From contig JANXAM010000010.1 in assembly GCA_025062155.1 (NCBI GenBank), positions 1 through 64,000 on the forward strand: 64,000 nucleotides of DNA. Direction: 5' to 3'. The notes under the pieces are model-generated. The model was not told the DNA's origin and did no database searches. It saw only the letters and a program-made list of their open reading frames with translations. The stretch comes from Gloeomargarita sp. SKYB120 (lineage in GTDB: Bacteria > Cyanobacteriota > Cyanobacteriia > Gloeomargaritales > Gloeomargaritaceae). How positions within the stretch are numbered: position 1 is the first letter of the stretch; every line of letters begins with the position of its first letter. A program made the position numbers and the translations under genes. Below, one piece after another: positions 4,968 to 57,244 of the stretch.

Positions 4968-5212
4968 ACCGACGTCCACTCGCTCCCGCTACTTTTAGCC
5001 TAATGCACTGGCGAGAATAACTACAAGTTTGGAAAACCAAAAATTCTGTAAAAATTCGGCAAGTATCGTCATCGTGCGCCGCCGCAGACCGTTGCAACTT
5101 GTAAAGATTTGCTAAATGGCGGCAAAGTTGAAGATTTTGGGGAGAAAACGGGGTGGGAAGATGCCCCAAGGTTAACCTAAAATCAACGCGCGGGTCAACG
5201 GGAGCGCAACCG

Positions 5213-7798
5213 ATGCGGGCCACTGAGGTGTACGTCACCATTCATGGGCATTTTTACCAGCCCCCGCGGGAGAACCCCTACCTGGAGGCGATCGAGCGGC
5301 AAGAGAGCGCTGCGCCGTTTCACGACTGGAACGAGCGGATTTTTTACGAATGCTATCGCCCCAACGCCTTTGCGCGCGTCCTAAGCGACAGCGGCGATGT
5401 GATTGATATTGTCAATAACTTTGAATACCTGAGTTTCAACATTGGCCCGACGCTGTTGAGCTGGCTGGAGCGCTACGACCCAGAGACCTACCGGCGAATT
5501 CTCGAAGCAGACCGCCGCAGTTGTGAGCGGCTCAACGGCCACGGCAACGCCATCGCCCAGGTCTACAACCATGTCATCATGCCCCTGGCTTCCACGCGGG
5601 ACAAGTTTACCCAGGTGCGGTGGGCCAAGCAGGACTTCTTCGCCCGGTTTGGCCGCTGGCCTGAGGGGATATGGCTGGCGGAAACGGCGATTGACTACGA
5701 AACCCTGGCGGTGCTGGTAGCGGAAGGATTCAAGTTCACCATCATTGCCCCATCCCAAGCCCAGCGGTGCCGGCCTTTAACCGGCGGCGAGTGGTTGGAG
5801 GTCGGTGGCGGCCAGATTGACCCGACCCGCCCCTATCTCTGCCGGATTCCCGATGATGTCTTGCCGGAGTATGGCCGCGACCGCAGCATCACTCTCTTTG
5901 TCTATGACGGGCCGATTTCGGGGGATATGAGCTTTGGGGATGTGCTCTGTAGCAGCCAAACGCTGGTGGGACGCCTGGGGATGGCGGTGCAGCCCGGACG
6001 CACCCAATTGATCGCCGTCGCCACCGATGGGGAAACCTTCGGCCACCACAAAAAGGGCGCGGAGAAGACCATTGCCTACGCCCTGACCCGAGAAATCCCC
6101 CGGCGTGGCTGGAAGGTCACCAATTTTGCTCACTACCTGAGCCTGCACCCGCCGGAGTGGGAGGTGGTGATCAAACCCCGCACGGCCTGGAGTTGCGCCC
6201 ACGGAGTGGAACGCTGGCGCTCCGACTGTGGTTGCGGCGGCGGTGGTGGGTGGCACCAGAAATGGCGAGCGCCCCTACGCCAAAGCTTAGACTGGCTGGC
6301 CCAGCAGTTGGACCGGCTGTACGAGGAATGGGCGGGGGAGTGGCTGCTGAATCCCTGGCGGGCGCGGGACGACTACATCCACGTCATGCGGGAACGCACG
6401 CGGGAGCGGACCCAGGCCTTTTTGGCCCAGCACCAGCGGTATCCCTTGACCCCCGAGGAACAGGTGGATGTGTTGCGGCTGTTGGAGATGCAGCGTCACC
6501 GCCTGTTGATGTTCACCAGTTGCGGTTGGTTTTTCGATGAACTGTCCCGTCCTGAGGGCGTGCAGATTCTCCGCTATGCCGACCGAGCGATGAAGTGCGC
6601 ACAGGAGGTGACAGGGCAAGACCTGGAACCGGAGTTTCGCAAGCGGCTAGCCCTGGCCCCCAGCAACCTGCCCCAGTACGTCAACGGCGAAGTGGTGTAT
6701 CAAAAACGGGTGGAGCCGGCGCGGGTGACTATGGCCCAGGTGGCGGCCCACTACGGCATCAGTTCCCTGTACACCTCCTATCCCCGCCAGGAGCAGCTCT
6801 ACTGTTACCGCATCGAACAAAAGGACTACCAGGTGGACCGGCTAGGCACCTTAACCTTAGCAGTCGGCCAGGTGACGATTACCTCCGTCATCACCTGGGA
6901 AACCCAGCATTGGGTCTTGGCGGTGCTGCACCTGGGGGGCTGGGATTTCCACTGTTGTTTGCAACCCTTCAAGGGCCGCAAAGCCTACCAGCAGATGCGG
7001 GAGCAGTTGGTGCAGGTGTTTCGCCAGGGAAGCGGCGCCCAGACGGTCTTGGCGATGGCCCGGTTGTTTAGCGGTGGCGCGTGCTACAACCTGTCCGATG
7101 TCTTCAGCCAGGAGCGACAACGGATTATCCGCCTGCTGGCCCAGAACACCCTGACCCAGCTCGACCAGCTCTACAGCCAGGTCTATCGGGAAAACTACGG
7201 CGTGGTAATGGCCTTCCGTCGGGACCATTTACCCGTGCCCCAGGAGTTGCAGGTGGCGGCGGCCATCAGTCTCGGCCAGCGAGCCATGTCCCTGTTGCGG
7301 CAATTGGAGCTGGAAACTAGCAACCCGCTCCAGGACAGCCCCCCCAATGGGCTGATGTACCTCCAGGAGCTGCACAGCCTGGCGCAGGAGGTGGAACAGG
7401 TGGGCGTGCAGCTGGACATTCCCGAAGGGCGGCAGGTCGTCGAACGGCTGTTGCTCACCTGGTTGGAGGGCCTGCTCACCCATGTCCCCCCGTCCCTGTT
7501 GCAGTTAGGTGTACAGCGCTGGCGCCAGTTATTCCAGCTTGCCGAGCGGTTGCAGTTGCCCCTCCAGCTCGACCGGATTCAGGAGCGGTATTTCGCCTGG
7601 GGGGTGCGCGGGGAACTGGCGCCCGAACTGCTAGAACTGGCCCCCCTGGTAAAGGTCGCCCCGCCAAGTTGTTCAACAGAAACCTGGCTCAGGCCCCCGA
7701 TAGCCGCTGACCGGTTGCTCCCCCCAACAACTGGTGCGCCCGCTGCAACCGCCGCAGCACCTCCTCCGGCTGAGGATGGCGGCTCAGACAGGCCCTGA
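5213..7798 (+). CDS. Glycoside hydrolase family 57 protein with DUF3536
   Basis: 861 residues. The N-terminal VTIHGHFYQPPRENPYLE is the first conserved region of GH57 enzymes, and ATDGETFGHHKKGAE near residues 265-280 is another GH57 block. The long C-terminal half fits DUF3536. Members act on alpha-glucans, so a role in glycogen or maltodextrin metabolism is likely but untested. The start ATG at 5213 follows GGGAG. The last 36 codons are low-complexity (P, A, G, D) and lie antisense to the convergent aldo/keto reductase, a 110-bp overlap; this tail was probably gained by loss of an earlier stop. Confidence 0.88.
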   Translation: MRATEVYVTIHGHFYQPPRENPYLEAIERQESAAPFHDWNERIFYECYRPNAFARVLSDSGDVIDIVNNFEYLSFNIGPTLLSWLERYDPETYRRILEADRRSCERLNGHGNAIAQVYNHVIMPLASTRDKFTQVRWAKQDFFARFGRWPEGIWLAETAIDYETLAVLVAEGFKFTIIAPSQAQRCRPLTGGEWLEVGGGQIDPTRPYLCRIPDDVLPEYGRDRSITLFVYDGPISGDMSFGDVLCSSQTLVGRLGMAVQPGRTQLIAVATDGETFGHHKKGAEKTIAYALTREIPRRGWKVTNFAHYLSLHPPEWEVVIKPRTAWSCAHGVERWRSDCGCGGGGGWHQKWRAPLRQSLDWLAQQLDRLYEEWAGEWLLNPWRARDDYIHVMRERTRERTQAFLAQHQRYPLTPEEQVDVLRLLEMQRHRLLMFTSCGWFFDELSRPEGVQILRYADRAMKCAQEVTGQDLEPEFRKRLALAPSNLPQYVNGEVVYQKRVEPARVTMAQVAAHYGISSLYTSYPRQEQLYCYRIEQKDYQVDRLGTLTLAVGQVTITSVITWETQHWVLAVLHLGGWDFHCCLQPFKGRKAYQQMREQLVQVFRQGSGAQTVLAMARLFSGGACYNLSDVFSQERQRIIRLLAQNTLTQLDQLYSQVYRENYGVVMAFRRDHLPVPQELQVAAAISLGQRAMSLLRQLELETSNPLQDSPPNGLMYLQELHSLAQEVEQVGVQLDIPEGRQVVERLLLTWLEGLLTHVPPSLLQLGVQRWRQLFQLAERLQLPLQLDRIQERYFAWGVRGELAPELLELAPLVKVAPPSCSTETWLRPPIAADRLLPPTTGAPAATAAAPPPAEDGGSDRP

Positions 7799-18463: not shown

Positions 18464-18754
18464 ATGCTACACCGTAAACTATATCAACTCTGCTGCGACG
18501 GTCGCGAAGTGTGGATTTATCTCAGGGACCAGCAACGGATGATCGAGCGGGCTCGGATTGTCGATATTGAGGGAGACCTGGTAACCTTACGCTACGAAAC
18601 CGAAGAAGACGACGAAATCTGCTCCTGGGAAGAAATGGTGCGCATCGAGAGCATCGGTTCCATTACCCAAAAAATTGCGTCCGTCCCGCGGGGCGACCTG
18701 GAACCCCTGGTTTCCGATGAGTGCCCGGAAGCGGAACAAATTCGCGAAGACTAG
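18464..18754 (+). CDS. Conserved cyanobacterial protein, DUF6679 type
   Basis: 96 residues, starting MLHRKLYQLCCDGREVWIYLRD with GAGGAG eight bases upstream. The rest is acidic (ETEEDDEICSWEEMVRIESIGSI) and reads like a small SH3-like or Sm-like beta barrel. It resembles the short conserved cyanobacterial family labelled DUF6679. No function is known. The stop overlaps the convergent DUF1995 gene by 4 bp. Confidence 0.72.
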   Translation: MLHRKLYQLCCDGREVWIYLRDQQRMIERARIVDIEGDLVTLRYETEEDDEICSWEEMVRIESIGSITQKIASVPRGDLEPLVSDECPEAEQIRED

Positions 18755-19425
18755 GCCCGCAACGCCCGCAACAAGCGCGTGAGTCCCCGCCAGAATCCGC
18801 CGCTTGGCGTTGGGGGATTGAGCAACTGGTCCAACGTCTCCGCATCGGGGTTGGTGGGAACTTCACCAGCAGGTTGATAGTCGCCGTTGCTGGTCTCTCG
18901 CCAAATTTGCCAGGGGTTGGGGTAACAGCGCAGGACGGCTCCCCCTTCCACCGGGCGCAGGTGATAGGCCGTGACCAAAGTCTGCAAAAACTCTCGCCGC
19001 AATCGCCGGCCCGCATAGCCAATCCCCACAGTGCCTGCATCTTCCAAGCGGGCGTTGAGCAAGATGACTGGACAAGGGGCCGTTTCCACGAGCAACCGAA
19101 CTTCCGTGACAGCTGCCGGATCCGGTGCAATGACCACCACCCCTTGGTCAGTCGGTTGATGGGGTTCCCGCAAGGTTTCCAAGCGCCAGGGCACATCCCC
19201 CCAATCCCGTCGGGCCAGGGCGGCGGCTCCAGCATCGGGAAAAACCACCCGTCCGGCGGCGCCCCATTCCGTGAACGCCTGTAAAAACGCCCACCCTAGC
19301 GCCATGGGTTTCACATCAGGTAGCCACAGTTCCACCAGCAAACGGGTTTCGCCAGCCGCTATCGCCTGTTGAGTCGCCATCTGGGCCTGGGCAATCGCCT
19401 CCGGCAGGGTTTGGGGCAAGGTCAT
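18751..19425 (-). CDS. DUF1995 family protein
   Basis: 224 residues. N-terminal LPQTLPEAIAQAQMATQQAIAAG, the central VVIAPDPAAVTEVRLLVE and the late FLQTLVTAYHLRPVEGGAVLRCYPNPWQIW are characteristic of DUF1995, found in cyanobacteria and plastids; plant LPA3 acts in photosystem II assembly. No signal or membrane segment is seen. Four-base overlap with the convergent small gene. The exact role in cyanobacteria is unknown to me. Confidence 0.85.
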   Translation of the reverse strand: MTLPQTLPEAIAQAQMATQQAIAAGETRLLVELWLPDVKPMALGWAFLQAFTEWGAAGRVVFPDAGAAALARRDWGDVPWRLETLREPHQPTDQGVVVIAPDPAAVTEVRLLVETAPCPVILLNARLEDAGTVGIGYAGRRLRREFLQTLVTAYHLRPVEGGAVLRCYPNPWQIWRETSNGDYQPAGEVPTNPDAETLDQLLNPPTPSGGFWRGLTRLLRALRA

Positions 19426-19490: not shown

Positions 19491-20445
19491 ATGGTCAACT
19501 TTTTACTCGGTCTGCTAGTGGGGGTCATCGGACTCCTATGGATGTGGCAACGCTATCAGCGTGTGCGTTCCCAGTGGCAAAAACGTTTACAGCAATCAGA
19601 AGAAACAACCCAAAGTTACCAGCAAGAACGGGATGCGCTCATTCGGCAATATCAAGAACTGACCCAACGGTTACAGGCGCTGGACGAAGCGTATCAAGCC
19701 GCCGTACAAAGAGTTAAGGAACTTGAACAAGAAAATCAGCGTTACAAACAACAGGTTCAACGCCTGGAAACCGACCATCGAATCGCGATTCAGCGTGTCC
19801 AGGTTCTTGAAGCAGAAAATCAACAATTACAAACCGACTGCACGGACTTCCAGAAATATGCTCAGGCAATTGAAGCAACCCATCAACAAACCCAAGCAGA
19901 CTATCAGGATGCCATTAATCAAATCCAAGTTTTGGAGACACAGAAGCGACAACTACAGCAGCGAGTAGACCAACTCCTAGAGTGCATCAATCAACCAACA
20001 TGCAGACCAGCGTCCTATTGTTTCAGCCGGCACCCAGACGAATTCCCATATTGCTGTCATCTTTGAAGCTACTGAACAAGACCTGTATCCCGATGAAATT
20101 TATGACACTATTCTGAGTATCCTGAAAATCTACGCCAATAGCTTGCCGGAAGAATACCGTCGCCGCCATCACATTTTGCAAGACATTTTGAATTGCAATC
20201 CCCCTTCTGGCCGCCGCGATGAGCTTCAACAAACGATCAAATCCCTATTTGCCAACTATCAAGGCAAAACCGAGCGTCTTGTCCGAGATTTAGTTGATTT
20301 AGGCTTTGAGTTTTTAGATAGCCCGAACCACTACAAGGTGAAATGGTGTGGTGATGACCGTTATGTATTCTCATTTGCGAAAACACCAAGCGACTACCGA
20401 GCCGGTGCCAATATTGCCCGCGACCTGATTCGTTTACTGTTTTGA
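19491..20445 (+). pseudogene. Coiled-coil protein with C-terminal domain, paralog 1, frameshifted
   Basis: A single N-terminal membrane segment (FLLGLLVGVIGLLWMW) leads into about 140 residues of Gln/Glu-rich coiled coil. The first frame then drifts to a short unrelated tail ending at 20066. A second frame, open from 19981 to 20445, carries a conserved globular domain: LYPDEIYDTIL, SLPEEYRRRHHILQDIL, LVDLGFEFL, HYKVKWCGDDRY, TPSDYRAGA. That domain is homologous to the C-terminus of the next gene, where it is in frame with its coiled coil, so I infer one original gene of about 317 residues split by a +1 shift between 19981 and 20064. Codon use is AT-richer than the neighbours. Sequencing error is the alternative. 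Confidence 0.72.
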
Positions 20446-20464
20446 CATGCGAAGGATGGCCATC

Positions 20465-21490
20465 ATGAATACCTTGCGTCGCTTGTACCGTTCTCTAAAA
20501 TATGCTTGCTTCCAATTCATGCATCACTGGAAATACGGCAGCAGTCGTGCTGGTTCTCCGTACTGGGAAAGTGTGATTCAGACCTTAGAAAGGGAAAAGT
20601 CAGTATTGGAACGGCGGAACAGCGAACTCAGGCGGGTCAATCAAGAACTTCAGAGCGAGCGCCAGCAATTGCGATATCAAGTTGACCAGATGACTAGGGA
20701 GAATCGAGAACTTGCTAATCAAAAACTTATCCTGCAGGGGCGTTGTCAGGAGTTAGCTGACCGACTGGGTCAATGGCAACAGGAAAATCAAAGTCTCAGA
20801 AACCAGCTCCAGCAATTGCAAGTTGAAAAGGTTCAGCTACAACAGGAGAACCAGAATTTTGCAGGTCAGCTCCAGCAATTGCAAATCGAAGTAACTGGCT
20901 ACAAAGAAAGCCTAGATAGATAAAACCAGTACTTACAGGATTTGGCTCAAGAAAACGAAGCCCTGCAAGTCGCTCTCCACCAGCAGGAGCAAGAATGTAA
21001 AAAACTGCAAAGTCAAACGGAGCAGCAAGCGCAAGAAATTGCTCAACTACGGGAGCAGTTAGAATGGTACCGGAAACCGAGTTCGAATCTGGAATTTAGA
21101 ACCGGTGAGCGCGGCCTTTACGAAGGTGAAATACGGGACATGATACTGATGATTCTCAGGCAACATCTCGAAAGTTTACCGGCGGATCCGAGAGACTATC
21201 CACGACGCAAGGATATTCTACGCGATGTACTAGCGCATAATTCCCGTCACGGTGAAATGGACCAACTCCGCCAGAATATTAGACAGCTCTTTCAGGGTTA
21301 CACGAAGTGGAATGACCGTATTGGCGAAGAATTGAGACATTTGGGTTTTCAATACTCAACCGACGGTGAACATTGCAAGGTAACTTGGCGCGGTGATAAG
21401 CGCTATACCGTTACCATCTCGACAACACCGGGTGACAAAAAGAATGCAGGCCACACTGTTATACAGAACTTCAACCAAACGTTTTTCTGA
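20465..21490 (+). pseudogene. Coiled-coil protein with C-terminal domain, paralog 2, interrupted by in-frame TAA
   Basis: ATG at 20465 follows GAAGGA; in-frame ATGs at 20447 and 20456 are alternatives. About 150 residues of coiled coil run to SLDR, then TAA at 20921-20923, and the same frame continues with NQYLQDLAQENEALQ and more heptads to residue about 215. The C-terminal domain follows (LYEGEIRDMIL, RRKDILRDVL, EELRHLGFQY, HCKVTWRGDKRY, TPGDKKNAG). The TAA is one transition from CAA (Gln), the commonest residue around it. It therefore looks like a recent nonsense mutation; readthrough or reinitiation at ATG or TTG near 20942 is possible. Unlike paralog 1 it has no clear membrane segment. 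Confidence 0.72.
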
Positions 21491-21541: not shown

Positions 21542-22807
21542 ATGGAACAGCGGGCGCGGAAGGTGGTGTTGGCCTACTCGGGCGGGGTGGACACAACGGT
21601 GTGCATTCCTTACCTGCGGCACGAATGGGGCGTCGAGGAAATCATTGCGCTAACGGTGGATGTGGGACAAGGGCTGACGCTGGAGATGGCGGACGCACCG
21701 GAACTGGAAACCCGCCGGCAGCAGGAATTGGAAGCCATTCGCACGAAAGCCTTGGCCGCCGGCGCTAATGTGGCTTTGGTAAAAGACGCGCGGGAGACGT
21801 TTGTGCGGGAGTATGCCCTGCCGGCGATTCAGGCCAATGCCCTCTACGAGGGTCGCTATCCGCTTTCGACGGCGCTGGCTCGCCCCTTGATCGCTCGCCT
21901 GCTGGTGGAAGTGGCCGAAGAGTACGGCGCGGATGCGGTGGCCCACGGTTGCACAGGCAAGGGCAATGACCAGGTGCGGTTTGATGTGGCGATTGCGGCG
22001 TTGAATCCCCGGCTGAAAGTCCTGGCGCCGGCGCGGGAATGGGGCATGAGCCGCGAGCAGACGATTGCCTACGGGGAGCGATTTGGGCTGAGTTTTCCGG
22101 TCAAAAAGTCGTCCCCCTACAGCATTGACAGTAATTTGTTGGGGCAAAGTATTGAGGCGGGGCCGCTGGAAGACCCCTGGCTGGAACCACCGGAAGAGAT
22201 TTACACGCTGACCCGTTCGGTCGCCCAAGCGCCCCCTTTGCCGGAGTACATCACGGTGGATTTTGTCCAGGGACAACCGGTGGGTGTGAATGAGGAACCC
22301 CTGCCGCCAGTGGCGTTGATGGAGCAGTTGAATTTCCTGGCGGGGCGACATGGCGTAGGCCGGATTGACATGATCGAAAACCGGCTGGTGGGGATTAAAT
22401 CGCGGGAGGTGTACGAGGCGCCAGGGTTAGCGGTGTTGATAACGGCGCACCAAGCCCTGGAAAGTTTGACCCTGACGCGGGATGTGACCCATTACAAGTA
22501 TGGGATTGAGCGCACCTATGCCGAACTGGTCTATAACGGGTTGTGGTTTAGCCCCCTGAAAGCGGCACTGGATGCGTTTATTCAAGAGACACAAAAACGG
22601 GTGACAGGGACAATTCGCTTGCGGCTCCATAAGGGCACGGCAACGGTGGTGGGGTGGCAATCGCCCTATTCCCTTTATGACCCTGATTTGGCGACCTATA
22701 CCGAAGGGGACCGGTTTGACCACCAAGCAGCGGAAGGATTCATTTATGTGTGGGGATTGCCGCTGCGGGTCTGGGCGCAAGTGGGACAAAAGCATCCGCC
22801 GGTTTAA
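21542..22807 (+). CDS. argG: Argininosuccinate synthase
   Basis: 421 residues. N-terminal ATP-binding [15 protein letters not shown] (10-24), then [28 protein letters not shown] and the C-terminal [19 protein letters not shown]. It condenses citrulline and aspartate to argininosuccinate in arginine synthesis. It heads a run of five same-strand genes with gaps of 22-33 bp (argG, HD, upp, small membrane protein, aroA). GC content returns to the genome norm here after the AT-rich coiled-coil patch. Confidence 0.97.
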
Positions 22808-25116: not shown

Positions 25117-26441
25117 CAGTCGAGCGCTCGCTGCTGGCGTTTACTGCTGACGGCGTTCTCCTGCAACCCCCACCGGACTTCACCTTGCGGGGAACGGTGC
25201 AAGTGCCAGGCGATAAGTCCATTTCCCATCGCGCCTTGATCATTGGCTGCTTGGCCCAGGGGACCACCGTCATTGAAGGGATACTGCCTGCTGCCGACCC
25301 CCAGAGTACGGCCCAGTGTTTACGGGCGTTGGGGCATCGGATTTCGCCGCTCAATCCCCAACGCGTGGAAGTCACACCGGGAGCCTGGCAAGAACCGGAC
25401 CAGGTGCTGGACTGCGGCAATTCCGGGACCACGATGCGCTTGCTGGCGGGCGTGCTCGCGGGTCGGGTGGAGCAGTTTTTCGTACTCACAGGGGATGCGT
25501 CGCTGCGGAGCCGGCCCATGCAACGGGTGGTTACGCCCTTACGCCAGATGGGTGCGGTGATGGATGGCCGCCAGAATGGGACGCGGGCGCCTTTGGCGAT
25601 TCGGGGACAGCGGTTGCGGGCGATTGACTACGAAAGCCCGGTGGCGTCAGCCCAAGTGAAATCAGCGATTTTGCTGGCGGGATTAACGTGTGCGGGCGTG
25701 ACCCAGGTGCGCGAACCCTACCCATCGCGGGACCACACGGAACGAATGCTGAAAGCCTTTGGGGCTGACATCGCCTGGGAAAACGCCGTGGTGGAACTGC
25801 GGGGGGGTGCCACGTTGCACGGTCAACGGGTAGTGGTGCCAGGGGACATAAGTTCGGCAGCGTTCTGGCTGGTGGCGGGCGCCATTACCCCCGGCGCAGA
25901 CATTGTGATGACTAACGTGGGTGTCAATCCCAGCCGCACCGGTATCTTGGAAGTTCTGGAAGCGATGGGAGCGCGGATTGAATGGCTGAACCAGCGGGAG
26001 GTAGCGGGCGAACCCTTAGCCGATATCCGGGTGCAACACAGCGCGCTCCGGGGGGCAACCATTGGCGGCGCGTTGATTCCCCGCTTGATTGATGAGATTC
26101 CCATTTTGACCGTGGCGGCGGCCTTTGCCCAAGGGAAGACGGTGATCCGGGATGCGGCGGAACTGCGGGTGAAAGAGAGCGACCGGCTGACTGCGATGGC
26201 AACCCAATTGACCCGGATGGGCGTGCAGGTAGAAGAATACCCAGATGGTTTGACCATCTACGGGACCGACAAACCGCTGGTGGGCGCGGATTTGCATACC
26301 TACGACGACCACCGGATTGCCATGGCCTTGGCGATTGCGGCGTTAAACGCGCAGGGCAACTCTCATTTAGCGCCCGCCGATTGTGTGCGGATTTCCTATC
26401 CCGAATTCTGGGAGACGTTGCAGCAGCTCTATCACGGTTAA
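25113..26441 (+). CDS. aroA: 3-phosphoshikimate 1-carboxyvinyltransferase (EPSP synthase)
   Basis: 442 residues. [15 protein letters not shown] near 30-44, [13 protein letters not shown], the [13 protein letters not shown] loop and [32 protein letters not shown] all mark AroA. It joins shikimate-3-phosphate and PEP in aromatic amino acid synthesis. The ATG overlaps the preceding stop (ATGA), and the 3' end overlaps the convergent kinase gene by 4 bp. Confidence 0.97.
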
Positions 26442-27700
26442 TCCTTTGGCCCCAGCAGCAGGAACTCCAATTTATTCAAGTCCCTGAGAGCGTCGGCGGC
26501 GGACGGATACCGGTCTTGGGGATAATAGCGGGTCATGGCTTGCAAGATGTTCAATAAATGACCGTTTTGGGGGGTGCGCCAGGGGGTCAAATCCAGTTCG
26601 CCGTTGTGAACATCCCAGGGCAAATCGGTCGGAGGAACGCCCGTCAGCGCCTGCAGAGCCACCATGCCCAACGCATACAGGTCACTGTTGAATTCGGGGT
26701 AGCCCATGAGTTGTTCAATGGGTGCATACCCCCGCGTGCCAATCGAGACGCTGGCGGCATAGGGATCAGGTTGGGGCGACATTTCTTTCACCGCGCCAAA
26801 ATCTATCAAAAAATAGTGGTCGCTTGCTGCTTCGTAGATGATGTTATCGGGTTTGATGTCGCGATGAATGACCGAGTGCCGGTGCATAAATTTCAGGATT
26901 TTGAGTAGATTTTTCACTAGGCCAAATACGGCTGGGACAGGCCAAGGCTTGCCATCGGCGAAACGTTCTCGCAACGACGGCCCGGCGATGAATTCTTCCA
27001 CCAGATAAAAGTCCCCATCCTGTTCAAAATAGGCCAACAGGCGGGGAATGTGTTTGTAATGGCCTAGATTTTCCAGCACTCGAGCTTCCCGTTGAAACAA
27101 TTGGCGGGTGCGCCGCAGTTTTTCGGGTTCCGTCAGAGGCACAGAGAGCAATTTTTTGACGACACACAGGGGCTTACCGGGCCGGTGCCAGTCCTGAGCG
27201 AGATACGTGCGCCCAAATCCGCCTTCCCCCAGCGGTCGCAGAATCTCGTAACGTCCCCCCAGGTGCGATGCCAATGTAGGCTTTGTCGCCTGGATACTCC
27301 GCACTGTCGCCAGTTGCGCCGCCACCCGAGCTGCTACCACCGGTAAATCCAGGGGTTTGGTGATGTAGTCATTCGCGCCCGCTTGCAGGGCAGTCACGAC
27401 ATCGGCGCTTGCTGCCCGACCCGTCACCATAATCACCGGTAGGACGCCTGGCGGGTGGGTTTAGCGAATCACTTTCAGCAAGTCCAGCCCCGTCATCCCT
27501 GGCAATAGCCAATCCAGCAACACCAAATCCCACCGGTCGCTTTGCAACAACTGGAGCGCTGTTTCGGGTTCACTGGCCGTTGCGACGCGGTAGTTGCCCT
27601 GCTGGCTGAGGAACCGTTGTAAGAGCTTGCGCATCAGGGGGTCGTCATCTACGACCAGCAGCGACGCCGACGTGCCCACATCCGTTTTCTCGTCTTCCAT
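26438..27700 (-). pseudogene. Receiver-Ser/Thr kinase hybrid interrupted by in-frame TAA
   Basis: From 27700 the frame encodes a response-regulator receiver (LLVVDDDPLMRKLL, phospho-Asp strand LVLLDWLLPGMTGLDLLKVIR), then TAA at 27461-27463. The same frame continues THPPGVLPVIMVTG and the receiver C-terminus (ALQAGANDYITKPLDL), followed by a complete Hanks-type kinase (LGEGGFGRTYLA, HRDIKPDN, LIDFGAVKE, SIGTRGYAPIEQ). The stop falls inside the receiver fold, at a position where a polar residue is expected; TAA is one transition from CAA. The kinase half could still be made alone from an internal start. Sequencing error is the other explanation. It overlaps aroA by 4 bp at the 3' end. Confidence 0.78.
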
Positions 27701-49592: not shown

Positions 49593-49614
49593 AACTTGCT
49601 CTTAGCTCACTTGG

Positions 49615-50472
49615 TTACACCATGGCCGGTTGACCTGTTTCAATCGGTAATTCGGGGATACGGGACCATTCATTCCAGGAAGCAAAATAGTTGCGCACAT
49701 CTCTAAAGCCCGCTTCTTTGAGCGCCACTAAAGTATTGGAGGCTCGTGAACCCTTGAAGCAATATACGTAAATACTTTTATCGGGAGTAACGCCTTTGGA
49801 ACGACACATTTCCAATATTTCCGGTCCAGATTTAAACATTACTGGCTCTCTAGTGGTATCCATGAAGTTATACCACTCAATCCAAACTGCGCCAGGAATC
49901 CGACCCTTGCGGGGGCAAAAATCCCTACCATAGGGCGAAGAACTCTCTCCTAACCACTCATCACGATCACGCACATCAAGAATTACCACACCTTCTTTAC
50001 CAATTCCGGCCAGCATTTCTTCCTTCGTCAGCCAAATTTCTGGATTAATCTGGACAGGAAATTTCTTGGCAATGGGATTTGCTGGCTCTGTAGAGATAGG
50101 CAAACCAGCTGATAACCATGCCTGGTAACCACCATGCAGAATCATAACCCTAGGGTAGCCAAGATACTTGAGCAGAAAATAACCTCGGCAGGATTGACCA
50201 AAACCCCGGTTCATGGCTTCTTCATAAACCACAGCAGTTTCTTCACCTGACAGACCAGCTGCACCAAAAATATCGGCAAATTTAGCGCTCATACTGGCAA
50301 TGCCTTCAGGCGTAGAATCTGCCAAATAGGTAAAAATTTCACGGATATTCACTGCATTCGGGATATGGCCCTTAGCATAGTCTTTTGGGTCACGCGTATC
50401 AATAATGACTACTGGCTCACTCACACTGAGAGCAAATAGCTCCTGGGGAGACAAGAGTACCTTTTCGGCCAT
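49615..50472 (-). CDS. Tandem-domain sulfurtransferase (rhodanese)
   Basis: 285 residues, two rhodanese domains. The C-terminal one has the active loop CFKGSRAS with Cys 238; in the N-terminal one the loop position reads EEAMNRG, without Cys, as usual for this class. Thiosulfate sulfurtransferases move sulfane sulfur to cyanide (giving thiocyanate) or to thiols. An NtcA-type promoter lies at 50510-50551. Base composition is visibly AT-richer than the genes to the left. It is the leftmost gene of the cyanase/ABC island. Confidence 0.93.
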   Translation of the reverse strand: MAEKVLLSPQELFALSVSEPVVIIDTRDPKDYAKGHIPNAVNIREIFTYLADSTPEGIASMSAKFADIFGAAGLSGEETAVVYEEAMNRGFGQSCRGYFLLKYLGYPRVMILHGGYQAWLSAGLPISTEPANPIAKKFPVQINPEIWLTKEEMLAGIGKEGVVILDVRDRDEWLGESSSPYGRDFCPRKGRIPGAVWIEWYNFMDTTREPVMFKSGPEILEMCRSKGVTPDKSIYVYCFKGSRASNTLVALKEAGFRDVRNYFASWNEWSRIPELPIETGQPAMV

Positions 50473-50509
50473 GATTTTTCTCCTGAAATGGGACCTAAAC
50501 TACCTATAG

Positions 50510-50551
50510 ATAATAGATAGAATCAGTCGAATAATTTGTGCCCAAAGCTAC
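50510..50551 (-). promoter_or_regulatory. NtcA-type promoter of the sulfurtransferase gene
   Basis: On the minus strand GTAGCTTTGGGCAC (50551-50538; GTA-N8-CAC, matching the GT-N10-AC core) is followed by 22 bp and TATTAT (50515-50510, TA-N3-T). This is the layout of NtcA-activated cyanobacterial promoters. The start codon is 38 bp downstream. Confidence 0.55.
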
Positions 50552-50731
50552 ATTTAGAAAAACTGTTATACTTGAGTAGGTATTGCTCTGGAGTACTACA
50601 ACTGTATGGATCTTTATTATCCAGATAACCGCCACAAAGTTTGGACATTTTATAGCCAAGCCGCTTTAGTTTGCTTAGAGAGAACCAACAGCCAACTTTG
50701 CCCTACGACTTAAGGGATGAAAAGTGTCAGT

Positions 50732-50753
50732 CTGCAGGGGGAAATTCCTGCAG
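50732..50753 (-). terminator. Hairpin after the flavoprotein gene
   Basis: CTGCAGG and CCTGCAG pair around an 8-nt loop, 8 bp after the stop of the minus-strand flavoprotein gene. It is followed by CACTTTTCATCC on the minus strand, only a short T-run, so termination would be partial. Confidence 0.45.
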
Positions 50754-50760
50754 GTATAAA

Positions 50761-51894
50761 TCACTCGAGGGAAGCTAGCATCTTACGCAAGTGCTTAAGT
50801 GCAGGGGTTACAATAGCAACAAAGTAAGCCTCTCTCAACTTACGATAATAGGGACTGTTTTCCAAATAGGCAATTGCACCTGCGTGCAACATTGCAGATT
50901 GAGCGGCGCGCAGAGCCAGTTCTGACGCTTTGATTCTACATATAATTACTTCTTTAAGCGTCTCCTTTGAAAGGAATTTCTGACCACAACCAATCACCTC
51001 CGCAAGATGGTGGGAATTGCGACGTAGCTCATCTAGCTCCTTTTCTAAGCTTTCAGCCTGGTCATCCAGAAAACAGTTTACATGGGATTTACGACGATTC
51101 TGTTGCCGGATAAGTTCAATACAACTAGCAACAATACCCAGTCCTATACCAACTTGACTCAGAATAAATCCAGGCTTGATCAATTCTACGTACTGAGTGC
51201 AGGGCGCAGATAAGATCCATTCACTACTGACAAAATAATCACGGAATATACATTTAAAAGTGCCCGTTCCTTCGAGAGCAATAAAATGGGCATCATTGCG
51301 TAAAACTAAACCTGGCTCTCCACCCTTCACAATTGCCATCAAGTAATTACCTGAATTAGCCAAACGCGCAGCAATAGCAAAGTAATGACCGTCTCCGATA
51401 TTTGAAACCCAGGGAAGCATACCATTCAGAACATATCCTCCCTGGCAAGGTTGAGCAATCAGGTTAATCTTTTCGATGCCAGCAAAGTGTTTCATGGGGT
51501 TAGATAAACCTGTACCAGCTAGAAATTCACCCCTGGCGACTGCTGGTAGGACTGTATGTTTCAAAAAGAGATTATCAGAGTTTTGCATATACCAGGCACA
51601 AGCATTCTGGCACCATGTTAGGAAACCAGTACTGCCGCATTCACGGGCAACAGTCTCAATCACTTGTAGAGTGCCCAGCAATCCCTGACCAGTGCCACCA
51701 AAATCAGAATCAACGGCCTGGGCATATGCTCCCAAAGCGCCAATGTACCTGAGAAAATCCTTGGGATAAAGACCTAAACGGTCAATTGCCTCCGTCATGG
51801 GCTGGAGCTTTTCTTTGACCGCCGCCTTTAAATGAGATATGAGAGTTGCCCCTGATAGAAATTGGGCATTGCCAAGAGCAACGGATGCAACCAT
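50761..51894 (-). CDS. Acyl-CoA dehydrogenase-fold flavoprotein (SfnB/DszC-like)
   Basis: 377 residues. The layout is that of acyl-CoA dehydrogenases: helical N-terminus with GALGAYAQAVDSDFGGTGQGL, STGFLTWCQNACAWYM, a central beta domain (GYVLNGMLPWVSNIG, LVLRNDAHFIALEGTGTF) and C-terminal helical bundle with AQSAMLHAGAIAYLENSP. The canonical catalytic-Glu/acyl-CoA context is weak, so the sulfur-compound monooxygenase or SfnB-like branch is more likely. GGAGG lies 5 nt before the ATG, directly after a strong terminator, so it may depend on readthrough from the OsmC gene. Part of the AT-rich island. Confidence 0.82.
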   Translation of the reverse strand: MVASVALGNAQFLSGATLISHLKAAVKEKLQPMTEAIDRLGLYPKDFLRYIGALGAYAQAVDSDFGGTGQGLLGTLQVIETVARECGSTGFLTWCQNACAWYMQNSDNLFLKHTVLPAVARGEFLAGTGLSNPMKHFAGIEKINLIAQPCQGGYVLNGMLPWVSNIGDGHYFAIAARLANSGNYLMAIVKGGEPGLVLRNDAHFIALEGTGTFKCIFRDYFVSSEWILSAPCTQYVELIKPGFILSQVGIGLGIVASCIELIRQQNRRKSHVNCFLDDQAESLEKELDELRRNSHHLAEVIGCGQKFLSKETLKEVIICRIKASELALRAAQSAMLHAGAIAYLENSPYYRKLREAYFVAIVTPALKHLRKMLASLE

Positions 51895-51905
51895 AGAGAA
51901 CCTCC

Positions 51906-51963
51906 AAAATAAAAGTGAAAAACAGTCCCTAAAGTGACCCTACCGCTGACTCTTTAGGGACTG
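51906..51963 (-). terminator. Rho-independent terminator or attenuator between OsmC and flavoprotein genes
   Basis: Perfect 12-bp inverted repeat CAGTCCCTAAAG (51923-51934) and CTTTAGGGACTG (51952-51963), 17-nt loop, followed on the minus strand by TTTTTCACTTTTATTTT. It lies 9 bp after the OsmC stop. Its T-run reaches to the Shine-Dalgarno of the next gene, leaving no room for a separate promoter. Confidence 0.82.
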
Positions 51964-51972
51964 GAGAAAACC

Positions 51973-52509
51973 CTAGGCAAGAGTTACGGTCATGTTGACA
52001 GGATTGCGCAAGGTATTTGCCACGGGAGACCAGTAGTTGGCATGGGCAACCAAATCCTCCAGCGCCGCCCTATCAACCCCTTCGGCAGCAATGTCCACTT
52101 GCACACGAATGTCGGAAAACCCCAAACGCTTTTCCGATAAATCGCCAATTCCCCAGACGCCAGTGATATTGATATCCCCTTCTACATACAGCTCTAGCTT
52201 CGTTAGCTGGATACCACGCATGATGGCGTTGGCATGAATCCCAACCGATAGGCATGAGCCTAGCGCAGCAAGCACTGCTTCAGATGGGTTCGGAGCTGTA
52301 TCTTGCCCGAGTAAAGTGGGAGGTTCATCAATAATGTGGGCTGGTAAGTTCCGAACGTAATTCAAATTCCGAAATTGTCCTTCGCATACTGTCTTGACCT
52401 TCAACGTGGCCACTGCATTGGGATTGGCTTTAGCCTTTTCCGCCAAGGACACCAACCCGTCTTTGCTCACTGGACGCAAACAGGTCTTGATTTCCGCCGA
52501 TTGAGTCAT
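51973..52509 (-). CDS. OsmC/Ohr family protein
   Basis: 178 residues. N-terminal FRNLNYVRNLPAHIIDEPPTLLGQDTAPNPSEAVLAALGSCLSVGI, with the peroxidatic-type Cys in GSCLSVG, and the C-terminal ANYWSPVANTLRNPVNMTVTL. Where peroxide-reducing OsmC/Ohr proteins have a second Cys (C-P-V), this one has S-P-V, so classic thiol peroxidase chemistry is unlikely. The family often handles thiols or organic hydroperoxides. An NtcA-type promoter lies upstream (52555-52596). Confidence 0.9.
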   Translation of the reverse strand: MTQSAEIKTCLRPVSKDGLVSLAEKAKANPNAVATLKVKTVCEGQFRNLNYVRNLPAHIIDEPPTLLGQDTAPNPSEAVLAALGSCLSVGIHANAIMRGIQLTKLELYVEGDINITGVWGIGDLSEKRLGFSDIRVQVDIAAEGVDRAALEDLVAHANYWSPVANTLRNPVNMTVTLA

Positions 52510-52554
52510 GGCTCTACCCCTTCGTGAGTAAGTAAATAGAACGCTCTTTATAGT

Positions 52555-52596
52555 AAGTTAGCCTGTAGCCGTTTGGCAAATTGTTACCTGGGATAC
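52555..52596 (-). promoter_or_regulatory. NtcA-type promoter of the OsmC gene
   Basis: On the minus strand GTATCCCAGGTAAC (52596-52583; GTA-N8-AAC) is followed by exactly 22 bp and TAACTT (52560-52555, TA-N3-T). The start codon is 45 bp further. The rest of the 192-bp gap (52510-52701) holds no gene; a GGG/CCC hairpin is possible near 52645-52680. Confidence 0.55.
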
Positions 52597-52701
52597 CGTT
52601 TCTTCAAACTTCTTGGGGCTACTGATATCGCCAATCATTGGAAAACCAGCAAGGGAACTTAACCCTGTGACCCTGGCGATGACAAGCGTAAATAAAAAGC
52701 A

Positions 52702-53583
52702 CTACCCTAAATTCTGGGCTTTTTCGACTTCACGGGTTTCCCGCGTGAGATGTTCTTCCATTAAAGCCTTCAGCTCGTGATAACCGGCTTGTTGGTCCAA
52801 GGTATCCCGATGTCGCGGTCGTGGAAATGGTACATCTAAAATCCGGTCAATTTTGGCTGAGGGGCCCCTAGTCATCATGATAATTTTGTCCGATAGCAGC
52901 AGGGCTTCTTCGATACTGTGAGTAACTAGCACAACCGTTTTGCGTTTTTGTTCCCAGATACGCTCAACTTCATCCTGAAGATACCCTCTCGTTAGTGCAT
53001 CAAGTGCACCAAATGGCTCGTCCATGAGCAAAATTTGTGGCTCAATTGCTAATGCACGCGCAATACTGACTCTTTGTTTCATGCCTCCAGAGAGTTCGTG
53101 GGGGTACTTCCGCTCGGCGCCGCGCAATCCCACCAGCTCAATATATTCATAAGCAAGACTAAGGCGTTGGGGCTTAGTCATCTGTGGAAAAACAGTCTCA
53201 ATAGCAAAAAGAATATTCTCCAAGGCCGTCATCCAGGGTAGCAATGAATAGTTCTGGAAAACAACGCCACGGTCAGGTCCTGGACCAGTAATAGGTTGAC
53301 CATTGAGAAATACCTTGCCCCCAGTCGGTCGCACCAAACCAGCGATGATATTCAGTAGTGTTGACTTTCCACAACCAGAAGGCCCAATGATGGATACAAA
53401 TGTATTAGGTTCTATATCCAGGTTGATGTCAGAAAGAGCAACGTAATTCTTAGTTGAGCGACGCGTCACCCTATCCATCCAGCTACACCGCCCTGGATAG
53501 ACCATGTAAATGTGGCGCAAAGACAGATGACTTGTTGGTTCAGCGACCAAGGACTCAGTCTGCATTTGCTCAGCTGTAATCAT
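52702..53583 (-). CDS. cynD: ABC transporter ATPase, NrtD/CynD/SsuB type
   Basis: 293 residues. Walker A GPSGCGKST, Q-loop VVFQNYSLLPWMTALENI, signature ELSGGMKQR, Walker B ILLMDEPFGALDALTR and switch VTHSIEEA, closest in pattern to nitrate/cyanate/taurine/sulfonate importer ATPases. The ATG overlaps the permease stop (ATGA). The symbol is offered because of cyanase and NtcA sites nearby; a sulfonate transporter is the main alternative. Confidence 0.72.
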   Translation of the reverse strand: MITAEQMQTESLVAEPTSHLSLRHIYMVYPGRCSWMDRVTRRSTKNYVALSDINLDIEPNTFVSIIGPSGCGKSTLLNIIAGLVRPTGGKVFLNGQPITGPGPDRGVVFQNYSLLPWMTALENILFAIETVFPQMTKPQRLSLAYEYIELVGLRGAERKYPHELSGGMKQRVSIARALAIEPQILLMDEPFGALDALTRGYLQDEVERIWEQKRKTVVLVTHSIEEALLLSDKIIMMTRGPSAKIDRILDVPFPRPRHRDTLDQQAGYHELKALMEEHLTRETREVEKAQNLG

Positions 53584-54380
53584 ACTTGCCTCCCGTAAGC
53601 AACCCAACTCTGAAGCAATGCAAAAAGTCGGTCAAATAAAAGGCCGACGAAACCAATGACAATTATCCCCGTAATCAGGCTGGTGATGCTCAAATTATTC
53701 CACTCATTCCACACAAAATAACCCATCCCTAGATTGCCAATGATAATCTCTGCCGCCACAATTACTAGCCAAGCAATGCCAAACCCTATCCGCATACCAG
53801 CAACAATGTTCGGTGCAGCGGCGGGTAGAATGACTCTTGTAATTGTGCGCCAGAAAGAAGCCCCCAAGAAACGAGTGACATCTAGGTAGGATTTGTCCAC
53901 GGTGCTCACCCCAAACCTAGTATTCAGCAGGGTGGGCCACATACTGGTAATTGTGATAACGAATAAAGCTGTCGCCTCTGAGTCCTTGAGTAATCCCAAG
54001 CCTAAGGGCAACCAAGCCAGCGGTGAGACTGGTCTGAGGACTTGAACATAGGGATTTAGCGCCTTATCAACCACTTCCGAGAGTCCCATGAGAACACCTA
54101 CAGGAATGGCAATAGATACGCCGATTAAAAAGCCTAAACAAACACGGCGTAAGCTAAACAAAACCAGCCACCCAATCCCCTTATCATTAGGCCCATTGTC
54201 GTAGAATGGATTGGATACCCACCGCCAAAACTCCTTAGCAGTATCAAAGGGAGAAGGGATCAGCTCCGAGAAAATACGCGCCTTGACACCCATATCCCAC
54301 AGCGTCACTAAGACCATGAATGAAAGAATGAACAGCGCCAAGGCCGTAATGTTTCGATGACGTTCCCATACGGTTGGCAT
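53580..54380 (-). CDS. cynB: ABC transporter permease, NrtB/CynB/SsuC type
   Basis: 266 residues, six membrane helices. The importer EAA loop is SYLDVTRFLGASFWRTITRVILPAAAPNIVAGMRIGFGIAW, with earlier VQVLRPVSPLAWLPLGLGL, both typical of the nitrate/cyanate/sulfonate family. The start MPTVWERHRN is one base after the stop of the binding-protein gene; AGGAGG lies 13 bp upstream. Gene symbol inferred from context. The last gene of this set, the ATPase, overlaps its stop. Confidence 0.72.
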   Translation of the reverse strand: MPTVWERHRNITALALFILSFMVLVTLWDMGVKARIFSELIPSPFDTAKEFWRWVSNPFYDNGPNDKGIGWLVLFSLRRVCLGFLIGVSIAIPVGVLMGLSEVVDKALNPYVQVLRPVSPLAWLPLGLGLLKDSEATALFVITITSMWPTLLNTRFGVSTVDKSYLDVTRFLGASFWRTITRVILPAAAPNIVAGMRIGFGIAWLVIVAAEIIIGNLGMGYFVWNEWNNLSITSLITGIIVIGFVGLLFDRLFALLQSWVAYGRQV

Positions 54381-54381
54381 A

Positions 54382-55977
54382 CTACAATTTAAACCTCCTT
54401 CTTTGCTCAGCGATATAAGCTGCAGGATTTTGAGGATTAAAAGTATCAAACTTCAAACGTTCAACCCGTAGCTCTTGTGTGGGTGGATTCTGCCCCGTCT
54501 CCCGAGCTAAGGTTCTTGCGAGAGCTGTTTGGAAAACTTGATCAGCAATTTCTTTGTAGCGAGCCTGCTTTTCCGGCATCAGATTCCAACGCACCATCTG
54601 GGACATGAGCCAATAGGCAAAACTCTTCCAGGGGTAAGGGTCAAAGTCAATCCGGTCAGGGACATTGAATTTTCGGCCTTGACCGTCCTCAAAGTTACCC
54701 GTCAGCACAGCGTTGATCACTGGCTCAGGTGCGTTCAAAAATTCTCTAGCGGCAATGGCTCTAGCAATTCTTGGGCGATTAACGGCCTGTCGCGAAAAAC
54801 CACAGCCGTCAATAATCGCCTTGTTCACGGCGCGGAAGGTATTGGGGTGGTCACTGATCCAGCGCTGACTAGCCGCAAAGGCACAACAGGGATGGCCCTG
54901 CCACAATTCTTTGCTGAGCATGATGATGTGACCCACTTTATTGAAGACAGCCCGCTGTCCGACACTATCAGGAAGCAAAAAGGCATCCAACTGTCCAGCG
55001 GCCATCTTTGCTAGGGCTTCAGGAGGTGGAATAATGACAATCTCCACGTCCCGGTCAGGATTGAGACCCGCCGTTGCCAAATAGTAACGAATCAGCAAAT
55101 TATGCACCGAATAGGGGAAAGGCACACCGATACTGAAACCACGGAAATCTCTAGGCCCTTTAACTTTACCCTGGTGCTTGTTAGCTACAACAATCGACTG
55201 TCCATGGATGTTTTCTATGCTAGCCAAGCGCATCGGGAAAGTCACTGAACCAAGTCCCAGTGTCATCGCAATGGGCATGGGTGTTAGCATGTGATAGGCA
55301 TCCAGTTCACCCGCAATCGCTGAATCCCTAATAGCCGGCCAGCTCGGCATTTTTATCAATTCCACCTCAAGGCCATATTTTTTGTAAAAGCCCAGTGGCT
55401 TTGACATGATGATGGGTGTGGCGCAGGTAATGGGGATAAAGCCGATTTTAAGTTGATTTTTCTCGGGTTTACCTGGACCTTTGTCCTGCGCTCTTAGGTC
55501 GTCCTGGGTTAGGATAGACTGCATCGAAAAGGCAAGCGCTAGTAAACCTGCTGCAATGGTGATTTGCTTGAGAAAATGGCGACGGCTAAAACTTCCTTTT
55601 TTCAGAGTTGCGCCTAAAAATTCTTCGACCTGTGGGCCAAATGCAGCACGGAATGCAGCGGCTACTCCGCCAGCTTCTTTGATAAGTTCCTCACACAGTT
55701 GCCGTTTTAGAGGGTCGTCCCCCGCCACATAATCTGTGAACAAAGCATCTAGCATTTCAGCCTTGGCAAGTTTTTCTCCCAAAGCAACTGCCTCTGGACT
55801 GTACAGCCCCATCTTGTAGAAGTCATCGGCCAGGTCAATGGGGTCTTGTGGCATACCAAGCGCCTGATGGTCATGCTCTTGGGGCGAATGCATCCCGCCA
55901 CAAAAACATCTCAATTCTTCATGCGGCTCCTGTTGCTCACCCAGGTAGATAGAAACGCTTTTCGTCCAAACAGCCAT
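54382..55977 (-). CDS. cynA: NrtA/CmpA/CynA-like substrate-binding protein with N-terminal extension and internal Tat-like signal
   Basis: 531 residues. Residues 1-125 form an extra region with C24, C26 and H30 (CFCGGMH) and acidic helices. A twin-arginine motif SRRHFLK follows at 131-137, with a hydrophobic stretch (ITIAAGLLALAFSMQ). The binding domain comes next: LKIGFIPITCATPIIMSKPLGFYKKYGL, the NrtA-like GVPFPYSVHNLLIRYYLATAGL and CCAFAASQRWI. If the Tat-like segment exports the C-terminal part, the N-terminal region stays inside or is removed. NtcA promoter 56007-56048. Ligand is likely cyanate or another small N anion; the symbol is tentative. Confidence 0.75.
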   Translation of the reverse strand: MAVWTKSVSIYLGEQQEPHEELRCFCGGMHSPQEHDHQALGMPQDPIDLADDFYKMGLYSPEAVALGEKLAKAEMLDALFTDYVAGDDPLKRQLCEELIKEAGGVAAAFRAAFGPQVEEFLGATLKKGSFSRRHFLKQITIAAGLLALAFSMQSILTQDDLRAQDKGPGKPEKNQLKIGFIPITCATPIIMSKPLGFYKKYGLEVELIKMPSWPAIRDSAIAGELDAYHMLTPMPIAMTLGLGSVTFPMRLASIENIHGQSIVVANKHQGKVKGPRDFRGFSIGVPFPYSVHNLLIRYYLATAGLNPDRDVEIVIIPPPEALAKMAAGQLDAFLLPDSVGQRAVFNKVGHIIMLSKELWQGHPCCAFAASQRWISDHPNTFRAVNKAIIDGCGFSRQAVNRPRIARAIAAREFLNAPEPVINAVLTGNFEDGQGRKFNVPDRIDFDPYPWKSFAYWLMSQMVRWNLMPEKQARYKEIADQVFQTALARTLARETGQNPPTQELRVERLKFDTFNPQNPAAYIAEQRRRFKL

Positions 55978-56006
55978 AGCTCCCGCAAAACTGTTTTACT
56001 ACGAAG

Positions 56007-56048
56007 AATTTATTGAATTTACCCCCACTTATCTGTAACAATCGCTAC
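56007..56048 (-). promoter_or_regulatory. NtcA-activated promoter of the ABC importer operon
   Basis: Perfect GTA-N8-TAC (GTAACAATCGCTAC on +, 56035-56048). On the minus strand it is followed after 22 bp by TAAATT (56012-56007, TA-N3-T), the canonical class II NtcA architecture. The ATG of the binding-protein gene is 29 bp downstream. Confidence 0.75.
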
Positions 56049-56068
56049 TAAATAAAACGTTTTGTTTA
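56049..56068. promoter_or_regulatory. Candidate TetR operator (20-bp near-palindrome)
   Basis: TAAATAAAACGTTTTGTTTA is symmetric about the central CG except for one base pair. It directly adjoins the first NtcA box, upstream of the ABC operon and 83 bp from the end of the TetR gene. Binding by the neighbouring TetR protein is inference. Confidence 0.4.
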
Positions 56069-56112
56069 TTTGCAACCAACGCAGAGCGTGGTCAATCCCG
56101 AGCCGTTTGTCT

Positions 56113-56126
56113 GTAACAATGGCTAC
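56113..56126. promoter_or_regulatory. Second NtcA box
   Basis: GTAACAATGGCTAC, a perfect GTA-N8-TAC inside a 22-bp direct repeat (56032-56053 and 56110-56131) that differs at one base. It is 78 bp from the first site on the upstream side. No gene is driven on the + strand, so it probably assists the same promoter. Confidence 0.65.
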
Positions 56127-56150
56127 TAAATGGGTGACTGCTAGGGCAAT

Positions 56151-56753
56151 TTAGTGTTTGATACAGGCATCCTTTAGGAGCTGGCGGATGTAGCTAAAGC
56201 CACGTCTGAGGTGATGACGTTCGTCTCCTTGGTCATAAAGACGGCTCATGAGCAAGGTGCCTTCCATATAAGTCAGTATTTGCTCTGCAAGCTGCTCTGG
56301 AACAATCTCGGGCCGGAGCTGCTGCTTCCCCTGTTCGAGCAACCTGGTAAAAATTCCTTGCCATTCGTCAAAAACAGTTATCAGATGCTTTCTAAAAGCA
56401 TCATCTGAACCGGCTAAGTCCACAATCAAGTTGCCTAATAGACATCCGGCGCAGTTTGGCTCATGCAAATGGCGCTGCTCGATAGCATCAATGACCGCCA
56501 GTAGCTGGGCAATCGGTTCGTCGCAAGAAGCGATCGCTGGCCATATCACCTTATCCCTGATGTTCTTCCATTGATAATCAATCAGTGCATGCCCTAGCTC
56601 GTCTTTGTTCCCAAAGTAGTTGTATATACTGCCGGCGCTGGTTTGACTGACCGCCAACAGCTCTTTCAAACCAGTTGCACGAAATCCGTGCTGGTGAACA
56701 ACATCTACGATAGAACGTAGGATGTCCTCACGTGTTCGCTTGATATAGGCCAT
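56151..56753 (-). CDS. TetR/AcrR family transcriptional regulator
   Basis: 200 residues. N-terminal HTH: TREDILRSIVDVVHQHGFRATGLKELLAVSQTSAGSIYNYFGNKDELGHALIDY. The ligand domain contains CAGCLLGNLIVDLAG, the pattern of the C-terminal domain found in TetR regulators that respond to small electrophiles or thiols. It lies between the ABC operon and cyanase, all on the minus strand, and is the likely local regulator. A TTG four codons upstream is an alternative start. It holds the only GCGATCGC (56530-56537) I noticed in the window. Confidence 0.92.
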   Translation of the reverse strand: MAYIKRTREDILRSIVDVVHQHGFRATGLKELLAVSQTSAGSIYNYFGNKDELGHALIDYQWKNIRDKVIWPAIASCDEPIAQLLAVIDAIEQRHLHEPNCAGCLLGNLIVDLAGSDDAFRKHLITVFDEWQGIFTRLLEQGKQQLRPEIVPEQLAEQILTYMEGTLLMSRLYDQGDERHHLRRGFSYIRQLLKDACIKH

Positions 56754-56803
56754 ACAAGCTGTCAATCATCCGAAGAAAGGCCCGCCATCCTCTCCAGGGG
56801 TCA

Positions 56804-57244
56804 TTACCACTTCTTGTAGGGAAGAAATTTACCACTCATCACCACTTTAACTCGTGCGCCGCCGGGGTCATCAACCTTTTCGACATCCAAAGTAAAGTCA
56901 ATAGCGCTCATAATACCATCGCCAAACTTCTCCTGGATGACATCTTTTAAGGGCAGGCCGTAAATCTGCACAATCTCATAAAAGCGATAGATGAGGGGGT
57001 CTGTCGGCACAGTAGGCCCTAAACCTTTGACAGGATAGACGGTCAATTCAGTTAGGTCGGCTTCTGGTAAACCCAACGCTTCGGCTAGTTGCTTCACTTG
57101 GGTAGGCGTTGCGGTAGCCTGGCGATAGAACAGCGCCGCTGTAAAGACTTCACTCTGACCGATGAGCTTGCCTAGCTCCGCAAAGGTCAACCCCTTCTCG
57201 CGCTTGGCTTTCAATAGCTTTGCACTAATTTCTGGAATCATCAT
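56804..57244 (-). CDS. cynS: Cyanate hydratase (cyanase)
   Basis: 146 residues. Catalytic residues correspond to R87, E90 and S113 ([11 protein letters not shown] and [11 protein letters not shown]), each nine positions earlier than in the E. coli enzyme. The N-terminal helical domain ([25 protein letters not shown]) and the end [10 protein letters not shown] are typical. It converts cyanate and bicarbonate to ammonia and CO2, giving nitrogen and removing a toxic ion. An NtcA-like promoter lies upstream. The TetR gene follows 50 bp downstream. Confidence 0.97.

Follow-up and report, generated by a model that had tools for sequence, protein, structure and literature searches.

The DNA considered here (the window) was a stretch of 64,000 nucleotides from Gloeomargarita sp. 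SKYB120 (contig JANXAM010000010.1, positions 1 to 64,000), whose source genome, G000, is a 2.48-Mb draft in 91 contigs. Positions 19491 to 21490 carry, on the + strand, two tandem paralogs of a family in which intact homologs consist of one gene encoding an N-terminal membrane anchor, a coiled coil and a C-terminal domain (CTD). A preliminary description, prepared from the letters alone, had reported two broken neighbours ending in the same domain, which was confirmed here: the two CTDs (~130 aa) were 40 % identical (E 3e-21), and each coding sequence was interrupted once. No further CTD copy was found in genome G000.

Paralog 1 (19491-20445, + strand) lies between a DUF1995 protein gene and paralog 2. 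Its product begins with a membrane anchor (19491..19560), composed of MVNFLLGLLVGVIGLLWMW followed by the basic segment RYQRVRSQWQKR and predicted to be oriented N-out/C-in, with a stalk that would face the cytoplasm. As previously stated, the hydrophobic anchor was restricted to paralog 1: the best 19-residue Kyte-Doolittle mean was 2.11, at residue 1, versus 0.19 in paralog 2. The coiled-coil stalk follows in frame 0 (19561..19977) and displayed many weak matches to coiled-coil hidden Markov models (HMMs) and 50 % identity with the coiled coil of the ortholog in genome G002. Its open reading frame (ORF) runs from ATG 19491 to TGA 20064-20066, while the CTD (20047..20445) is encoded in the +1 frame, open from 19981 (after TAG 19978) to TGA 20443-20445. 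Since coiled coil and CTD occupy different frames, a frame change is needed inside 19981-20063, within the range announced beforehand (19981-20064). In this lesion zone (19981..20066), where frame 0 overlaps the +1 frame of the CTD, the G002 ortholog continues in a single frame. The CTD frame of paralog 1 contained no ATG, GTG or TTG able to start the whole domain, the first candidate being TTG 20143, within the domain. The CTD itself consists of a three-helix part followed by a part with a predicted HicA-like fold of the double-stranded RNA-binding domain (dsRBD) type (about 20266-20442).

Paralog 2 is a single frame from ATG 20447 to TGA 21488-21490, all on the + strand, of which the sole interruption is the in-frame TAA at 20921-20923, as had been noticed. 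Its coiled coil, which lacks a membrane anchor, extends from 20447 to 20920 before the stop and from 20924 to 21088 after it. The heptad phase was identical before, across and after the TAA, so the stop interrupts a formerly single coiled coil. The CTD of paralog 2 (21089..21490; phrog_2053, E 6e-6) retained the core motifs and displayed an altered SDxRxGxN tail (TPGDKKNAGHTVIQN), a departure that may reflect longer relaxation. Because phylogenetic analysis placed paralog 2 inside the genus clade (support 99/98), it is an old paralog and not a recent import. A mobile element as its carrier was rejected: there were no inverted or flanking repeats, no tRNA and no Rfam hit.

Relatives provided the intact form of these genes. 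The cyanobacterial homologs encoded by one ORF measured 429 aa in G001, 357 aa in G003, 373 aa in G129, 308 aa in G249 and 635 aa in G034; the last three, from outside the genus, combined an anchor or membrane segments, a coiled coil and a CTD. An anchor of the paralog 1 type was also present in G001, G002, G003, G129 and G249. In the G002 ortholog (290 aa), coiled coil and CTD are joined without a change of frame. In the nearest genome, G006 (96.3 % DNA identity over 2.8 kb), the reading frame stays open past the paralog 1 joint, and the contig breaks off in the first part of the CTD. The possibility that coiled coil and domain are naturally separate genes, which the preliminary description had foreseen as the case against a broken gene, was ruled out, as they were fused in all intact homologs. 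The same syntenic place beside the DUF1995 gene was occupied in the window, G001, G002, G003 and G006, while no family ORF was found at this site in G004 and G007. The CTD was encountered in only 6 out of 386 sampled cyanobacterial genomes.

Several relatives displayed peculiarities of their own. The G002 ortholog slips frame at a T run near its C-terminus (L011 about 5130-5225), and the lost tail is nearly unchanged in the next frame. The G006 locus (L038, G006:C191, 2870-3462 versus window 19491-20083) was ~96 % identical over both the DUF1995 gene and the anchor; in its coiled coil, synonymous sites become saturated right at a 10-N scaffold gap, and this locus looks mosaic or hypervariable, or like a scaffolding artefact. 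The coiled coil of G001 (L010 4150-4548) is built from a 108-bp repeat (3.7 copies, 97 % match), and the gene of G003, near-identical to that of G001, is 72 aa shorter with fewer repeat units. G011 carried only a short CTD remnant of 65 codons (L014 about 4970-5165).

Outside cyanobacteria, homologs encoded by one ORF were found on Klebsiella plasmids (473 aa), in a gammaproteobacterial metagenome-assembled genome (MAG; 467 aa) and on two IMG/VR contigs (471 aa). In the Klebsiella ColRNAI plasmids, the MAG and the IMG/VR contigs, the CTD was preceded by a region resembling the N-terminal part of HEC-07 candidate defence proteins (PADLOC PDLC04161/04159, E 1e-8 and 9e-10). The HEC-07 match was scored for the Klebsiella and MAG proteins, and the IMG/VR protein aligned with the MAG protein over its full length at 35 % identity. 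The cyanobacterial proteins, in contrast, carry an anchor and a coiled coil (paralog 2: a coiled coil only) in place of this region, and no HEC-07 match was obtained for the window proteins or the G002 and G003 orthologs among the matches listed. An AlphaFold2 (AF2) model of the full HEC-07-like protein was unusable (predicted local distance difference test score, pLDDT, 47), and a search for literature on HEC-07 and on HicA-like with PADLOC returned nothing. On both IMG/VR contigs the CTD gene adjoins a phage-type integrase. On a Citrobacter plasmid (L016 5959-6378 and 10854-11702), the gene is annotated as two separate end pieces, of which one adjoins tnpR of Tn4401 and the other ISKpn6, a layout that a Tn4401 insertion would produce; two further plasmids retain the CTD alone. 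Together, the Citrobacter, G002 and G011 cases show that the gene has been damaged repeatedly, as would suit a costly or dispensable gene, and the preliminary description was probably right to regard the pair as such.

The family had been called unrecognised, and this held insofar as no convincing Pfam or NCBIfam match covered the CTD; its distal half was nevertheless HicA-like by HMM, predicted fold and motif. The searches of protein and defence databases that had been recommended for the CTD gave direct HMM matches to this half. The PADLOC model PDLC02910 ('HicA-like') matched five CTDs with E values from 3e-7 to 6e-4 (G003 3e-7, G001 7e-6, paralog 1 2e-5), and phrog_2053 matched paralog 1 at E 3e-12 and the gammaproteobacterial homolog at E 2e-13, although the two models span just 61 and 72 positions, respectively. 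An AF2 model of the CTD, built with six family members (pLDDT 85), displayed three helices followed by an alpha-beta-beta-beta-alpha tail, in which a HicA/dsRBD fold was predicted for the last ~57 residues. In a Foldseek comparison with the PDB, HicA chains (5yrz, 6hpb, 4c26, 6g26) occupied ranks 1, 3, 4, 7 and 13; against viral models, the best matches were phage proteins of 57-80 aa, and rank 10 was named HicA-like toxin. A histidine that follows the first strand was invariant in all ten CTDs aligned, and when the CTD tail was aligned by hhalign with a profile of 15 cyanobacterial HicA domains, both invariant histidines coincided (P 0.0013). Sequence searches of the PDB with the CTD returned chance-level matches only, and searches of phage records by protein found no match.

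Like the HicA part of class 14 SMC-HicA proteins, the CTD sits C-terminally after long coiled coils, the SMC ATPase of that class being replaced here by a membrane anchor; as far as the excerpted text of Gerdes (2024, PMC10865869) describes them, the 14 classes of fused HicA do not include an anchored coiled coil with a HicA-like domain. The CTD differs from HicA toxins in its histidine motif (GxHxK versus GSH), in an extra three-helix part ahead of the fold and in the lack of both a PF07927 match and a HicB partner, HicB not being found among the flanking genes scanned. Because the PF07927 match and the partner were sought and neither was found, the domain is best named HicA-like rather than HicA, an assignment that several weak but concordant lines make likely.

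The AT-richness of the pair, from which a possible acquisition had been deduced, was evident (46.7 % GC for 19491-21490 versus 57.6 % for the window), but in sister genomes the orthologs occupying this locus were equally AT-rich relative to their own surroundings. Some of these orthologs being intact, low GC was rejected as a sign of recent acquisition by this strain; the AT-richness either dates far back in the genus or characterises the family. The open frames exceed chance expectation: stretches of 154 and 188 codons arose in 15 and 2 per 1000 shuffles, respectively, of the 2-kb sequence. Between the CTD of paralog 1 and that of G002, the proportion of synonymous differences was saturated (pS 0.81) while that of nonsynonymous differences was low (pN 0.145), and purifying selection has therefore acted on this CTD during most of its past; for comparison, pN against G002 reached 0.32 in the faster coiled coil and 0.06 in the slower argG. 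The lesion of paralog 1 is probably recent and its CTD was probably functional until recently.

Taken together, the two genes are probably recently inactivated tandem copies of an anchored coiled-coil plus HicA-like single-gene family, putatively of the tethered toxin or abortive-infection type. The comparison fits a pair of pseudogenes: some orthologs are intact in a single frame, and each lesion divides parts that are conserved. In an intact protein, the coiled coil would oligomerise the HicA-like domain or hold it at the inner membrane, where the tethered domain would bind, and probably cut, RNA when triggered (e.g. by phage or stress), so that the protein would resemble a tethered toxin, or a factor of abortive infection, that operates without HicB. 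Both copies would have this presumed effector domain severed from the stalk, by an indel in paralog 1 and by a nonsense mutation in paralog 2, and neither should therefore yield an active full-length product. The RNase activity and the defence role are suggested by fold and family context. Several observations weigh against this interpretation. The cyanobacterial copies lie among housekeeping genes and not in a defence island. A Pfam scan of the paralog 1 CTD gave no family at E<=1, and PF07927 was not listed for paralog 2 either; Foldseek E values were weak (best 0.31), and hhalign assigned a probability of just 18 % to the alignment of the CTD tail with the HicA profile. Finally, the lesions are known from a draft assembly alone, and an assembly error is possible at either site.

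The alternatives are not mutually exclusive in their likelihoods, as one concerns the function of intact members and the others the lesions. Regarding function, intact members could be structural or RNA-tethering proteins (RNase Y-like or scaffolds) and not toxins or defence factors. The combination of anchor, stalk and RNA-fold domain is reminiscent of RNase Y, and the housekeeping surroundings in cyanobacteria, the long, variable coiled coils with their 108-bp repeats and the lack of HicB nearby would suit such a role. The patchy cyanobacterial distribution, the repeated decay and the occurrence, on plasmids and next to an integrase, of homologs whose N-terminus is HEC-07-like argue against it, and we regard this role as possible though doubtful. 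Regarding the lesions, it is unlikely that one or both are assembly or consensus errors in genes that are in fact intact. The 91-contig draft, a region rich in similar coiled-coil codons and the N-gap of the G006 scaffold in the same gene, which indicates that the locus assembles badly, would favour such errors; yet two lesions of different kinds (indel and nonsense) affect adjacent genes and neither lies within a homopolymer of more than 4 bases. A general indel error across the window was not supported either: among 32 ORFs of G002 that matched the window well, paralog 1 was the sole frame switch on the window side.

Expression by recoding, proposed in the preliminary description, would require a +1 frameshift at CTT-TGA in paralog 1 and stop readthrough in paralog 2. 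The frame-0 stop of paralog 1 is indeed CTT-TGA (20061-20066), from which a +1 step would lead into the CTD frame right where its conserved residues begin, and the linker that would fall out of frame is not conserved. The prfB gene of this genome displays CTT TGA C (L078 379-384) and encodes the remainder of RF2 in the +1 frame, and ribosomes of this genome therefore probably shift there. Paralog 1, however, shares with such a programmed frameshift gene only the CTT TGA itself: the Shine-Dalgarno-like run upstream is lacking, and the base after TGA is A and not C as in prfB. Among the stops of shifted frames in window ORFs, 1.6 % (23/1421) were CTT-TGA, and the motif in paralog 1 was recognised post hoc; recoding does not explain how the TAA of paralog 2 would be passed; and the orthologs cross the junction in one frame, with neither stop nor shift at the paralog 1 site, leaving the proposal without comparative support. 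We consider it highly improbable. Even less probable is a switchable paralog 1, giving normally an anchored stalk that stops exactly where the CTD begins and, by a +1 shift at the CTT-TGA motif that prfB also appears to use, a full-length anchored HicA-like effector whose amount would rise as RF2 runs short or translation comes under stress; if true, the condition of the translation machinery would determine the expression of an RNase-like effector. It is also very unlikely that the splits are adaptive, with truncated anchor-stalk and free CTD fragments working as separate proteins: both halves retain long open frames and paralog 2 displays a TTG (20942) after its stop, but its ribosome-binding site is poorly spaced, no start codon yields the whole CTD of paralog 1, and no homolog was encountered in which the halves are separate by nature.

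The pair is flanked upstream by the divergent, conserved DUF1995 protein gene (18751..19425, - strand), which served as syntenic landmark and whose G001 ortholog matched Pfam DUF1995 at E 2e-55. Downstream lies argG (argininosuccinate synthase; 21542..22807, + strand), named from reading of the sequence and located directly after paralog 1 in G002. Elsewhere in the window, a protein-kinase-like gene (26438-27436) has a G002 ortholog that appears frame-shifted. A second AT-rich patch (49600-57000, mostly 44-50 % GC) may be an acquired island; its ORFs, read by eye, were rhodanese-like, acyl-CoA-dehydrogenase-like, of the ABC-transporter type (sulfonate/nitrate) and TetR-like.

The breakage itself is ordinary gene decay, and the interest lies in the family behind it, best read as dispensable, fast-evolving and patchily spread. 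In cyanobacteria this family places a HicA-like domain, without HicB, on a coiled-coil stalk with a membrane anchor; in proteobacteria the same domain is coupled with a candidate defence module, on plasmids and on integrase-linked contigs. The repeated damage is compatible with a gene that imposes a cost whenever it is not needed. If the domain is an effector, the HicA fold would gain one more context, tethered and free of an antitoxin, and the family would be a single-gene defence candidate amenable to study.
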